A DNA stretch of 39,328 bases from Caryophanales bacterium (GTDB taxonomy: Bacteria > Bacillota_I > Bacilli_A > RF39 > UBA660). The position numbers and the translations under genes are program-made. The notes below the pieces were generated by a model. The model made no database searches. It saw only the letters and a list, made by a program, of their open reading frames with translations, and was not told the origin of the DNA. Below, one piece after another: positions 3,897 to 39,328 of this stretch (its first letter is position 1; the number at the start of each line of letters is the position of its first letter). The stretch spans positions 1 through 39,328 of the forward strand of contig JAEEVN010000010.1 of NCBI GenBank assembly GCA_016290885.1. Direction: 5' to 3'.

Positions 3897-3921
3897 AATA
3901 CCTATTATTGGGGTGAAGGAT

Positions 3922-4389
3922 ATGCTTATATGTGAAGAATTTATTTTTGATAAAGATCAATATGGATATCATATAACAAATATAGATGCTATGAAAGGTA
4001 TATGTGAAAAAGGATTAATACCACAAATTGGAGAAAGAAGTAAGTTTATCGGAGAAACAGAGGAAAGTGTTTTCTTTATCTGTAATCTTTATGATATGAG
4101 AGATTGGATTAATGCTATATATTATGAAAGAAATGCCGAAGAATTAGAATTACTTAGATTTAATATAAAAGGATTAGAGTGGCATGTAAGAGGTGGCCAA
4201 TCAATACATGAACCACAAGAATTTTATATGGTTCATAGTGTTTCTCCAGAAGAAATTGAATATGCAAGAGTATTTAATAGCAAAACTAATGAACCATTAA
4301 CTTTAGATACACAATGTAATGATATGAACGTTGTTTGGAATAAATTAGATAATTATAAACCATTAAAATTTGTTCCACCTCGCTCTTAA
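3922..4389 (+). CDS. ADP-ribosyltransferase-like protein, copy 1
   Basis: 155 residues from ATG 3922, after GGGGTGA. A GTG at 3913 is in frame but lies inside the SD, and copy 2 (6190-6696) aligns from the ATG. The N-terminal pattern YHITN-x3-MKGI-x3-GLIPQIG-x-RS, followed by SVFFICN and a conserved LLRFNIKGLEWHV, resembles small ART-fold proteins (YHxT..GLxP..G..S), as in DarT-like or KptA-like folds. EIEYAR near residue 115 is a candidate catalytic Glu segment. The ART assignment is inference from motif shape, not a confident family hit. A candidate small RNA directly upstream could pair with its SD. Confidence 0.55.
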   Translation: MLICEEFIFDKDQYGYHITNIDAMKGICEKGLIPQIGERSKFIGETEESVFFICNLYDMRDWINAIYYERNAEELELLRFNIKGLEWHVRGGQSIHEPQEFYMVHSVSPEEIEYARVFNSKTNEPLTLDTQCNDMNVVWNKLDNYKPLKFVPPRS

Positions 4390-6184: not shown

Positions 6185-6215
6185 AAAGATCAATTCATTT
6201 GAATTGATCTTTTTT
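6185..6215. terminator. Bidirectional terminator
   Basis: AAAGATCAATTC and GAATTGATCTTT form a perfect 12-bp stem over ATTT, with T and A tails. It serves the SDR gene (+) and ART-like copy 2 (-). Confidence 0.85.
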
Positions 6216-6696
6216 GTTTATCACTTAAATATAAAGCTTTACCAGGGTTAATAGGTTTATATTTATTAATAGGATTCCATGTTATTATTGGGTTATCAGT
6301 TTTAGTAGTTAATGTTTGTATTAGACCAGTTTTTCTATCATACATTCTTGCATATTCTATTTTATCACGAGGTATTCCATTTGGTAGATAATGATCAATA
6401 TAAAGACCATCAATATCCATTTCATGAACATGCCATTCTAAACCTTTTATATTAAATCTTAATAATTCTATACTACATCTATCTGCATCTTTATATATTG
6501 CATCAAGCCATGATTTAGTATCTTTTATATCATAAAAGAAGAATATACCTTCTATATCATCTCCAACTCTTTTGCTTCTATCTCCGATTTGTGGTATCAG
6601 ACCAGATTTTATAATACCCTTCATAGCAGGAACATTTGTTAAATGGTAGACATATTTATCTTCAGTCCAAATAAATTCATCACGTATTGTTCCCAT
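6190..6696 (-). CDS. ADP-ribosyltransferase-like protein, copy 2
   Basis: 168 residues; the start follows TCAGGAGGG. It is a clear paralogue of the gene at 3922-4389: YHLTN-x3-MKGI-x3-GLIPQIGDRS, then GIFFFYD, a shared LLRFNIKGLEWHV and an IEYAR segment near residue 118. It extends about 10 residues beyond copy 1 with a basic tail (LSDKQKRSIQMN) that runs into the terminator hairpin. Orientation is opposite to copy 1. Assignment to the ART fold is the same inference as for copy 1. No antitoxin-like neighbour is recognised. Confidence 0.55.
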   Translation of the reverse strand: MGTIRDEFIWTEDKYVYHLTNVPAMKGIIKSGLIPQIGDRSKRVGDDIEGIFFFYDIKDTKSWLDAIYKDADRCSIELLRFNIKGLEWHVHEMDIDGLYIDHYLPNGIPRDKIEYARMYDRKTGLIQTLTTKTDNPIITWNPINKYKPINPGKALYLSDKQKRSIQMN

Positions 6697-28221: not shown

Positions 28222-28797
28222 ATGAATAAAAACTTTATTGTTATTGGAGACAGTATTACATATGGAATAGGAGATTTTGAAACTTTAGGATGGGCAACTA
28301 TGCTAAAGAGAGATATCGTTAATAGAGATGGAACAGATATGTGTAAGAATTTTGTTCATGTAGTAGGTTTCCCAGGAGCAACTAGTAAAGACATATTAGA
28401 TAAAATAGATGATATTTATAGAATATATCGTTATGATGGTTTTGATGATGTAGTAATATTATCTATTGGTATTAATGATGTATACGAATATGAAGCAAGT
28501 GGAGAAAATAGTGTTGAAGAATATATATCAAATATAACTTGTATAACAGATTATATTAGTAAACAAGGGGTAGGATTAATACTTCTTGGATTAATGCCAG
28601 TTAATGATGAAGACTATATTAATGATTCTATAATAGAGTATGATAATGCTCTAGAAAAATTTGCTAAAGATAATGAAATTGATTATATTCCTATGTTTGA
28701 TGTATTAAAACCAGAAGATCTAATCGATGGATTACATCCTACAAAAGAAGGACATGAAAAAATATATAATAGAATAATTGATTATTTAGAAGAATAA
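28222..28797 (+). CDS. SGNH/GDSL-family hydrolase
   Basis: 191 residues; SD ATAGGAGA, 1 nt after the preceding gene. SGNH blocks: IGDSITYGIGDF (Ser near 9), GFPGATS (Gly), SIGINDVYEYE (Asn), and a C-terminal DGLHPTKEGH with catalytic Asp and His. There is no signal peptide, so it is cytoplasmic. The family hydrolyses esters or acyl groups of lipids or carbohydrates; the substrate is unknown. Its place after the desulfurase and ferredoxin fusion gives an operon of three, but a functional link is not evident. Confidence 0.9.
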   Translation: MNKNFIVIGDSITYGIGDFETLGWATMLKRDIVNRDGTDMCKNFVHVVGFPGATSKDILDKIDDIYRIYRYDGFDDVVILSIGINDVYEYEASGENSVEEYISNITCITDYISKQGVGLILLGLMPVNDEDYINDSIIEYDNALEKFAKDNEIDYIPMFDVLKPEDLIDGLHPTKEGHEKIYNRIIDYLEE

Positions 28798-28826
28798 AAA
28801 GATAACATAGTTATCTTTTATTTTTT
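28798..28826 (+). terminator. Terminator of the desulfurase operon
   Basis: AAAGATAAC and GTTATCTTT pair over ATA, followed by a T-rich run. Confidence 0.8.
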
Positions 28827-28840
28827 ATCAAAAATGCCAA

Positions 28841-28879
28841 TGTAGTAAAATTGTAGTATTTTTGTAGTTTTTTTGTTGA
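28841..28879 (+). promoter_or_regulatory. Direct-repeat operator candidate, 11-bp period
   Basis: TGTAGT occurs at 28841, 28852 and 28863, exactly 11 bp apart, with A/T between. A degenerate fourth unit, TGTTGA, begins at 28874 in the same phase and overlaps the -35 box. One helical turn per unit is expected for tandem binding by a ribbon-helix-helix repressor, such as the one encoded next. Confidence 0.6.
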
Positions 28880-28904
28880 CACGGTATTTTTTTGGTGTTA
28901 TATT
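28876..28904 (+). promoter_or_regulatory. Strong promoter of the RHH-Nudix operon
   Basis: TTGACA at 28876-28881 and TATATT at 28899-28904, spacing 17, with TGT before the -10. The -35 box is perfect consensus. Confidence 0.8.
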
Positions 28905-28923: not shown

Positions 28924-29505
28924 ATGGAGAATAAAACAAGTGCTATTAACATACAAATAGATAGTAATGTTAAGAAAGATGCCACTATGGTTCTTACAGA
29001 TTTAGGACTATCAATGAGTTCTGCAATCAATTTATTCTTAAAACAAGTTATTAAAAAGAATGGATTACCATTTGAAGTTACTAATGTAGTAGAAAATAAA
29101 AAAATACTAGATGTAGTATGTGGACTTATTATGAAAGATGGTAAATGCTTAATTGCAAGAAGAAATAAAGAAGATCATTTAAAAGGCAAATGGGAATTCC
29201 CTGGAGGAAGAAGACAAGGTCTTGAAGATGAAAAGAAGACTTTAGAAAGAGCATTCACTGAATTATTTAAAATTAAAACAAATATCAATGATTATTTAAC
29301 ACATAGTATATGTGAATATCCAGGCCACATAGTAGATTTAAAAATCTATGAATGTGATTATATAAGTGGAGAATTTGATTTAAGTATTCATTCAGAATAT
29401 AAATGGGTTAATATAGAAGAATTATTAGATTATGATTTATGCGATGCAGATGTAATATTATCTAAATTCTTAATTAAGAAAGCATTAGAAGAATCAAGAA
29501 AGTAG
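28924..29505 (+). CDS. RelB/DinJ-type RHH domain fused to degenerate Nudix domain
   Basis: 193 residues from ATG 28924, after AGAGGTGAG; a TTG 17 codons upstream lies in the promoter. Residues 7-52 match RelB/DinJ antitoxin ribbon-helix-helix: INIQIDSNVKKDA, then LGLSMSSAINLFLKQVI and GLPFEV. Residues about 60-185 form a Nudix fold close to the MutT-type enzyme at the end of this operon (LKGKWEFPGG, YKWVNIEEL). The Nudix box keeps G95, E101, R109 and E113, but A110 and L114 replace two metal-binding glutamates and K116 replaces the late Gly, so hydrolysis is unlikely. Inference: a ligand-sensing repressor that acts on the repeats at 28841-28879. No toxin follows. Confidence 0.8.
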   Translation: MENKTSAINIQIDSNVKKDATMVLTDLGLSMSSAINLFLKQVIKKNGLPFEVTNVVENKKILDVVCGLIMKDGKCLIARRNKEDHLKGKWEFPGGRRQGLEDEKKTLERAFTELFKIKTNINDYLTHSICEYPGHIVDLKIYECDYISGEFDLSIHSEYKWVNIEELLDYDLCDADVILSKFLIKKALEESRK

Positions 29506-29512
29506 GATGTTT

Positions 29513-29827
29513 ATGGATACTAAGAAATTGCAAAAAGAAGTTTATGAAAACAAAGTTAGACATGGATTTAATGTAACAGATTTAAACATGGAATTTTGTT
29601 TAGCTCATGGAGAACTTAGTGAAGCTTATATAGCATGGTTAAAAAAACAAGATGATGTAGGAGAAGAACTTGCAGATGCAGCTATATATTTATTAGGTAT
29701 AGCAGAAATACTTAATATAGATTTAGGTAAAGAAATAGAATTAAAAATAGAAAAAAATAAAAATAGAGTTTATAAAGAAAACTCTAAAGGTGTTCTTGTA
29801 AAAGAAGACGAATTAAGGGAGGTTTAA
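29513..29827 (+). CDS. MazG-like nucleotide pyrophosphohydrolase
   Basis: 104 residues from ATG 29513, 6 nt after AGTAGG; an in-frame ATG at 29507 overlaps that SD. It is a single MazG-type domain, with EFCLAHGELSEAYIAWLKK supplying ExxE and VGEELADAAIYLLGIAE supplying ExxD, the Mg-binding pattern of the all-alpha NTP pyrophosphohydrolases. Such small proteins cleave (d)NTPs to NMP and pyrophosphate, often removing abnormal nucleotides. It is the second gene of the RHH-Nudix operon, 7 nt after the regulator, supporting a nucleotide-cleaning role. Confidence 0.85.
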   Translation: MDTKKLQKEVYENKVRHGFNVTDLNMEFCLAHGELSEAYIAWLKKQDDVGEELADAAIYLLGIAEILNIDLGKEIELKIEKNKNRVYKENSKGVLVKEDELREV

Positions 29828-29828
29828 T

Positions 29829-30311
29829 ATGGTTTCAAAAAATACATATTTAGGATTAACGAAAAAAGAAATAGAAATAACATTCAAAAAAATAGGATTA
29901 TATGGATTAGACTTAATTAGTGACACAATATTAGATTCATTTGTAAATTGTAGTGATGATTGGGAAATGTTAAATGATACATATGCAGAGGCTCTTGCTA
30001 TATGTGAACAAAGAGAAAGAATAGAAAAACCAAATAATGTACATCAAATAGAATTACAACATGCATTAGTAAAATTATCTGAAAAAGAATTAGAGTTCCT
30101 AAAAAATCTTTTATCACTTGATATGAGAGCGGATAAAGAACCTGTTTTAGGAGATCCATATCATGAAATGAAATCTTATGTCGAACATGAAGAAATTTCT
30201 AGACCTGCAAGAAAATTTTATAGAAAAACAATTAATAGCCAAATAAAAAGAGCAACTAGATTAGAAACAAATCAACAAAAGAAATTATTAAGACTTAGTT
30301 ATGAGGGATAA
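29829..30311 (+). CDS. Hypothetical protein, 160 aa, in the nucleotide-pool operon
   Basis: Starts at ATG 29829, 1 nt after the MazG-like gene, with GGAGG in its SD. The protein is soluble and helical, with LGLTKKEIEITFKKIGLYG at the start, a central SDDWEMLNDTYAEALAICEQ and a basic C-terminal region (ARKFYRKTINSQIKRATR) that could touch nucleic acid or nucleotides. I recognise no family. Its position between a MazG-like and a MutT-like enzyme implies a part in the same process. The next gene starts 1 nt after its stop. Confidence 0.75.
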   Translation: MVSKNTYLGLTKKEIEITFKKIGLYGLDLISDTILDSFVNCSDDWEMLNDTYAEALAICEQRERIEKPNNVHQIELQHALVKLSEKELEFLKNLLSLDMRADKEPVLGDPYHEMKSYVEHEEISRPARKFYRKTINSQIKRATRLETNQQKKLLRLSYEG

Positions 30312-30312
30312 T

Positions 30313-30720
30313 ATGAAAAGAGTAGAAGTAGTAGCAGCAGTTATAGTTAAAGATAATAAAATATTAGCAACACAAAGAGGGTATGGAGAATTCAAAGGTG
30401 GATGGGAATTCCCTGGTGGAAAACCTGAAGCTAATGAAACAAAAGAAGAAGCATTAAAAAGAGAAATAAAAGAAGAATTAAATGCAGATATAGAAGTAAA
30501 TGATTATATATGTACAGTAGAATATGATTATCCAAATTTCCATTTAACAATGCACACTTATTATTGTTCATTATTAAATGATAATTTAGAACTTTTATAT
30601 CATGATGAAGAAAGATTAGAACATGAGTCTATGAAATGGTTATCTATTGATGAAATAGATTCTGTTGATTGGTTAGGTGCAGATATAGAAATAGTTAATA
30701 AATTAAAAAAGACTAATTAA
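30313..30720 (+). CDS. MutT-type Nudix (d)NTP pyrophosphohydrolase
   Basis: 135 residues from ATG 30313, after GAGGG; an in-frame ATG at 30301 overlaps the previous gene. Intact Nudix box: G36, E42, R50, E51, E54 and E55 in GGKPEANETKEE and KREIKEEL. The EFKGGWEFPGGK and C-terminal MKWLSIDEI...DWLGAD patterns match small MutT/NudG-like enzymes that clear oxidised or methylated (d)NTPs. Precise substrate unknown. Its closest relative in the window is the Nudix half of the operon's own regulator. It is last in the operon, and its stop is in the terminator palindrome. Confidence 0.92.
   Translation: MKRVEVVAAVIVKDNKILATQRGYGEFKGGWEFPGGKPEANETKEEALKREIKEELNADIEVNDYICTVEYDYPNFHLTMHTYYCSLLNDNLELLYHDEERLEHESMKWLSIDEIDSVDWLGADIEIVNKLKKTN

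Positions 30721-38871: not shown

Positions 38872-39328
<457 letters not shown>

Follow-up and report, generated by a model that had tools for sequence, protein, structure and literature searches.

An antitoxin-type DNA-binding domain and operator-like element joined to a degenerate Nudix domain: what looks like a nucleotide-controlled switch of nucleotide-cleaning genes in a gut bacterium

What is the function of a bacterial protein that begins as an antitoxin and ends as a Nudix domain without its catalytic residues? The question is raised by a gene in a Caryophanales genome assembly (contig JAEEVN010000010.1), within the stretch of 39,328 nucleotides that was analysed as a whole and that we call the window. 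We asked whether this architecture is real and conserved, where its parts came from, and which regulatory role fits the evidence best.

Architecture and conservation of the fusion protein

The gene and its parts are as follows.

28924..29505, + strand: RHH-Nudix fusion protein, 193 aa, an open reading frame with an ATG start
28939..29085, + strand: RelB/DinJ ribbon-helix-helix (RHH) domain, residues 6-54 (Pfam RelB, TIGR02384, DinJ/RelB structures)
29101..29481, + strand: Nudix domain without catalytic residues, residues 60-186 (Pfam NUDIX_4, AlphaFold2, fold matches)
29206..29274, + strand: degenerate Nudix box, residues 95-117, GRRQGLEDEKKTLERAFTELFKI, with Glu110 lost in all carriers

A sequence-only reading had placed an RHH domain at residues 7-52 and a Nudix domain at residues 60-185, and profile searches bore this out, as both halves exceed curated cut-offs. 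An RHH profile fits the N-terminus, as that reading required: Pfam RelB (PF04221) covers residues 6-61 with E 1.1e-12 and 48.2 bits (cut-off 22.4), the protein reaches 66.3 bits with NCBIfam TIGR02384 RelB_DinJ (cut-off 45.65), and solved chains of DinJ and RelB are matched by residues 1-59 on their own. Residues 66-176 match NUDIX_4 (E 2.2e-13, 50.4 bits against a cut-off of 35), and Pfam NUDIX is also above its cut-off. The NCBIfam models nearest to this half are a NudG-type pyrimidine (d)NTP diphosphatase and MutT, both below their equivalog cut-offs.

Full-length homologues with 81-89% identity were found in 15 genomes, which belong to the window's genus and to several other genera of its family; those records that have names are uncultured Bacilli/Erysipelotrichaceae assemblies. 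Ten of 386 sampled family genomes, the window's own included, carry the fusion. It was not found in the viral contigs, plasmids or phages searched, nor outside the family in samples of the class and phylum (~390 genomes each, partly overlapping, the phylum search covering only matches at E <= 1e-22); our scan of genome contigs for homologues reaches close relatives only. One apparent longer match, L038, proved to be a stand-alone RelB and was rejected. As far as can be read from the sequences, the fusion arose once. All carriers are related and come from one bacterial family, and the counts given here are therefore not independent.

The reading frame is neither chance nor a frame artefact, because the full-length protein recurs in 15 genomes at this identity with a low median dN/dS. 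Taken pairwise, the median is 0.073 across the RHH part and 0.095 across the Nudix part. These values are rough, since the median dS is near 1; at about 0.1 in both halves, they place the Nudix domain, too, under purifying selection.

Conservation of the Nudix half does not extend to its catalytic residues. The window's protein reads R109-A110-F-T-E113-L114 where relatives read REIKEE, so that Ala and Leu indeed replace two of the REUxEE glutamates, as the sequence-only reading had claimed. Of the 15 genomes, 14 have Ala and one has Ser at position 110, which leaves the first REUxEE glutamate absent throughout, and position 114 lacks Glu in 14 of 15 (hydrophobic or Ala). The exception, L095, has Asp113-Glu114, yet Glu is still missing at 110. 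Among aligned sequences, Glu110 is absent from all 12 fusions and present in 29 of 29 stand-alone Nudix relatives and in 6 of 6 MutT proteins of the operon; the box is intact in all 35 unfused relatives examined. Two changes had not been listed before: the box Lys is constantly Arg96 in the aligned fusions, and the acidic residue at position 155, which we take from our own alignment and general knowledge to be the expected place of MutT Glu98, is lost in 12 of 12. An intact box in homologues of the same architecture would have refuted the idea of a catalytically degraded domain; carriers have boxes of the RAFxEL type, and the intact GX5EX7REUXEEXGU motif is present in 0 of 15.

An AlphaFold2 prediction from eight close fusions alone was unusable (pLDDT 38.7), whereas 74 rows of homologues covering both domains gave a monomer with a mean pLDDT of 90.7, and ~96 in the Nudix half. 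Judged by the loss of Glu110, a dN/dS of ~0.1 and a confidently predicted Nudix fold, the domain is dead but preserved, the loss of hydrolysis itself being inferred.

Promoter, repeats and operon

Upstream and downstream of the fusion gene lie the following features.

28841..28867, + strand: operator-like element, direct repeats TGTAGTA / TGTAGTA / TGTAG starting at 28841, 28852 and 28863 (11-bp spacing), from comparison of carriers with relatives
28876..28904, + strand: promoter from a promoter scan, -35 TTGACA (28876-28881), 17-bp spacer, -10 TATATT (28899-28904), with TG before the -10
29507..29827, + strand: MazG-like protein, 106 aa, encoded second in the operon (24.5 bits with Pfam MazG-like, slightly under the 27-bit cut-off)
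29829..30311, + strand: H4, a fast-evolving unknown family, 160 aa (no Pfam match; relatives in the operon in 15 of 15)
30301..30720, + strand: MutT-type Nudix hydrolase with an intact REIKEE box, 139 aa (Pfam NUDIX, 1.5e-17)

The promoter is sigma-70-like and strong, the best of 12 promoter-like sites in the region with 11/12 matches. Just upstream of it stands a direct array of three [A/T]TGTAG units at 11-bp spacing. When upstream regions of the fusions are compared, their flanks cannot be aligned and a single common block remains, TGTAGTAnnnTTGTAGTAnnnTTGTAG, followed after ~7 nt by TTGAC. The repeats begin at -83, -72 and -61 relative to the ATG in most carriers, and TTGAC is kept 12-13 bp past the start of the last repeat in all of them. 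If transcription starts 7 bp after the -10 box, as we estimate, the repeats are centred near -46, -57 and -68, which puts them upstream of the -35.

This conserved element belongs to the fusion. A whole-genome scan allowing up to 3 mismatches found the block once per genome, upstream of the fusion only, in 14 of 14 carriers (a second match in G000 is the same array read one repeat on, and the block of G766 has one mismatch). At no more than 1 mismatch it occurs in none of 44 relatives without the fusion; two matches at 2 and 3 mismatches in these non-carriers are no more than a backwards control pattern gave. In G019, a match to the repeat pattern at 2 mismatches sits beside the gene of an unrelated regulator, and we attribute it to chance. 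Upstream regions of the fusions hold 45 motifs against a mean of 2.9 in dinucleotide shuffles, and 31 phased pairs against 0.1, counts that are not independent because the sequences are related. Copies of the motif on the opposite strand were looked for upstream of the fusions and none was found.

Between a GDSL-lipase gene and the operator-like element, we noted by eye an A+T-rich hairpin followed by T's (window 28797-28830, AAAAGATAACATAGTTATCTTTTATTTTTTATC); our terminator scan, which looks for G-C pairs, did not pick it up.

Downstream, the genes next to the fusion are MazG-like, H4 or MutT in 15 of 15 genomes, and no cognate toxin of the RelE/YafQ type adjoins it. The MazG-like protein is in every fusion operon, directly after the fusion in nine and after MutT and/or H4 in six. 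H4 is likewise present in 15 of 15, though some members are recognised weakly; its length is very variable and its consensus reads ...LFNKYNINTLDSLSILLSYI.... The MutT gene overlaps H4 by 11 bp in the window, and intact MutT is found in 9 of 15 operons, the other eight proteins being 69-81% identical to the window's. Because upstream genes differ among many carriers, we infer that the cassette has probably changed its place. MazG-like relatives in the non-carriers G006, G008 and G017, and a second copy in G725, stand in other settings without phased repeats. A PADLOC match, PDC-S07, falls on Nudix domains and was not counted as evidence of defence.

Elsewhere in the window, 3913-4389 (+) and 6190-6696 (-) encode paralogues with the common start YxYHxTNxxAMKGIxxxGLIPQIGxRS and no Pfam match, and 38873-39328 is an incomplete 16S rRNA gene at the window's end (first 400 model positions).

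Origin of the two halves

The repeats resemble a known antitoxin operator. In E. coli, RelB recognises the hexad [A/T]TGT[A/C]A, whose least critical base is the last A, and its operator relO consists of gapless inverted hexads spanning -10 to +17 (PMC2812701). K13 and S28 of RelB are important for DNA binding and N5 contacts a base (PMC2812701); these residues correspond to K17, S32 and N9 of the fusion, which are invariant among fusions, the contacts being compared by sequence only. In the fusion's own bacterial family, a YafQ/RelE-like toxin of 93-102 aa comes after many of the stand-alone RelBs, and several of these RelB-YafQ operons, mostly those with the most similar RHH, carry TGTAG-type repeats in 10-11-bp phase just before TTGACA. 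The relB-yafQ operon at L026 has exactly three repeats at 11 bp. In total, 29 upstream regions of stand-alone RelBs contain 15 phased pairs against 0.12 in shuffles; the repeats are missing at many other RelB genes of the family.

A partner toxin is mostly undetected in the carriers. YafQ (PF15738) is absent from eight of the nine fusion genomes tested and present in one, and a ParE/RelE-type toxin (PF05016) was undetected in 12 of 14 and found in two. The fusion is the sole RelB-domain protein in 12 of 14. These assemblies are incomplete, and absence of a toxin from them is no proof. From about residue 56 onward the fusion is Nudix, and the tail of stand-alone RelBs does not align with it.

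Because the motif resembles the RelB hexad and similar phased repeats stand at RelB-YafQ operons of the family, the fusion seems to have taken over promoter, operator and DNA-binding domain from an antitoxin, a dead Nudix domain now standing where the toxin-binding tail was. The simplest history would join the 5' portion of a relB-yafQ-like operon, with its promoter, operator and RHH, to a stand-alone nudG-like gene. Few columns support the RHH tree, and it does not fix the donor. The earlier proposal that an antitoxin-type DNA-binding domain had been captured thus gains strong support from an operator-like element found only with the fusion, the similar element at the family's RelB-YafQ operons and the mostly undetected toxin. 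Its further proposal, a repressor, is likely and not demonstrated. As to the captor, said to be a dead MutT paralogue, the dead Nudix domain stands and the parentage does not: the Nudix domains of the fusions form one clade (100/100) within a group that holds stand-alone NudG-like proteins of the same family, and the neighbouring MutT of the operon is separate from it. The tree thus points to a stand-alone protein resembling NudG or CTP pyrophosphohydrolase as parent.

Capture of RHH domains by other domains may be commoner than is known. In G121, two proteins, L133 (938-1558, -, 207 aa) and L134 (1672-2319, +, 216 aa), have a RelB RHH with long C-terminal parts that match nothing in Pfam.

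A proposed switch, and comparison with known systems

We hypothesize that the fusion is a ligand-controlled transcriptional autoregulator of a nucleotide-sanitation operon. We consider this the probable reading, although binding, repression and ligand are all inferred. In this scheme, a RelB-type RHH dimer would bind the array of three [A/T]TGTAG units shortly before the -35, for which we have no binding data. It would repress the promoter, an analogy drawn from toxin-antitoxin operons with an element of this kind and made without expression data. The Nudix domain, with its catalysis presumed lost and its fold kept, would serve as the sensor. Affinity for DNA would drop on binding of a nucleotide, and the MazG-like protein, H4 and often MutT would be made when the nucleotide pool is damaged or altered. 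The likeliest kind of nucleotide is a non-canonical pyrimidine triphosphate, for example a 5-substituted (d)CTP, a class on which NudG and mycobacterial MazG act. It would lift repression here much as ADP-ribose does for NrtR (PMC4666351).

Nucleotide sensing by the Nudix half is an inference without ligand data, and the choice of ligand is a guess by analogy. The best fold match of the predicted structure is E. coli Orf135/NudG (Z 18.9, rmsd 3.3, 140 aligned), with M. smegmatis MutT2 bound to 5mdCTP, CDP, CMP or dCTP at Z about 18 and BdRppH also among the matches (Z ~18-19). We treat rows within 1 Z as tied; hence the fold alone does not choose a ligand, because BdRppH and other MutT-type proteins fit as well as NudG. 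We suggest 5-substituted (d)CTP because NudG prefers 5-methyl-dCTP over CTP (PMC5158307) and mycobacterial MazG degrades 5-OH-dCTP (PMC3855555). A Nudix-derived sensor can bind a sugar instead, as in AraR of the NrtR family (PMC4666351).

The alternative that survives best is an autoregulator without a ligand, in which the dead Nudix domain does no more than contribute to the dimer interface or engage a co-repressor partner (MazG-like, H4 or MutT). E. coli offers a precedent in the RelE toxin, a co-repressor of RelB (PMC2812701); moreover, the Nudix domain occupies the place of the former toxin-binding tail, and MazG-like and H4 accompany every fusion. We nevertheless regard this reading as unlikely, since conservation is concentrated at the Nudix box and at the substrate-side motifs WEFPGGRR, CEYPGHIVDLK and DYDLADAD. 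That this exceeds what a bare scaffold needs is our judgement, made without pocket mapping.

The direction of control is a separate doubt. Against an autorepressor, the repeats are direct rather than gapless inverted hexads, and their position upstream of the -35 is also usual for activators; activation is not excluded, because relO covers -10 to +17 whereas these repeats do not reach the -35. The fusion could then activate its operon through contacts with RNA polymerase from the sites at about -46, -57 and -68, which share a face of the helix and keep an almost constant distance to the -35. However, a near-consensus promoter (11/12, TG) should need no help, and toxin-antitoxin operons of similar layout are expected to be autorepressed, like almost all such operons (PMC2812701). 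Activation therefore strikes us as improbable.

It is more doubtful still that the Nudix domain remains an enzyme, with another catalytic base and other metal ligands, and that the RHH merely autoregulates. Some Nudix proteins take their catalytic base from elsewhere, and Glu101, Arg109 and Glu113 of the box are kept in nearly all fusions. Set against this are the consistent losses at 110 (15/15), at 114 (14/15) and of the acidic residue at 155 (12/12 aligned), and the statement that active hydrolases strictly conserve the Nudix motif, which NrtR regulators have in impaired form (PMC4666351). Finally, although its N-terminal domain is of the RelB/DinJ antitoxin family, the fusion can hardly serve as antitoxin to a RelE/YafQ-type toxin encoded elsewhere, as the tail that follows the RHH in stand-alone RelBs is gone and, in incomplete assemblies, such toxins were mostly undetected (no YafQ in 8/9, no ParE/RelE-type in 12/14) and no second RelB-domain protein was seen in 12/14.

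Returning to the ligand-controlled autoregulator, a bolder form of it would be a one-component sensor of modified cytosine nucleotides (5-substituted (d)CTP, oxidised or of the phage-type 5-hydroxymethyl kind) that switches on a portable MazG/H4/MutT cassette through an operator derived from a toxin-antitoxin system. We hold this version as speculative and rather unlikely as it stands. If true, RHH-Nudix regulators would have their first example here, and a toxin-antitoxin promoter would have become a switch that responds to nucleotide damage or acts against phages. More broadly, the locus suggests a route from addiction module to ordinary regulator, in which the module retains its promoter, operator and DNA-binding half but trades the toxin-binding half for a sensor derived from a dead enzyme. 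With it, one can ask by experiment whether bacteria detect nucleotides that are damaged or modified and tune MazG and MutT to match; the operator, the promoter and the candidate ligands are specified closely enough for a reporter test. The sequence-only reading knew of no characterised example, and we likewise found no published RelB-Nudix or RHH-Nudix regulator in the open-licence literature, to which our search was limited.

Three known systems come close. NrtR and AraR have an impaired Nudix box and use the domain as an effector sensor (PMC4666351). The fusion shares with this family the impaired box joined to a DNA-binding domain (PMC4666351); it is also likely effector-controlled, by inference, and would regulate genes related to the chemistry of its parent enzyme. 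In NrtR, however, the Nudix domain comes first and a winged helix-turn-helix second, whereas the fusion has RHH first and Nudix second, and a Pfam search found no winged helix-turn-helix profile in it. Its Nudix half derives from NudG-like enzymes, and operator and target genes differ; it would be a second, independent solution to NrtR's job with another DNA-binding fold. With the RelB/DinJ antitoxins (RelBE, DinJ-YafQ) it shares the RHH domain, the DNA-contact residues, an autoregulatory operon position and TGTA-type hexads at its own promoter, [A/T]TGTAG against [A/T]TGT[A/C]A in E. coli, with binding not demonstrated. Unlike them, it is followed by no toxin gene, has a Nudix domain for a toxin-binding tail and faces direct rather than inverted repeats. 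NudG/Orf135 and MutT2, pyrophosphohydrolases of CTP and 5-methyl-dCTP, provide the fold and the closest sequence relatives of the C-terminal half, but every fusion has lost the first REUxEE glutamate and is joined to a DNA-binding domain. The fusion is thus neither an NrtR nor, as far as tested, a working antitoxin: in the proposed reading it operates as the former does, with parts taken from the latter.
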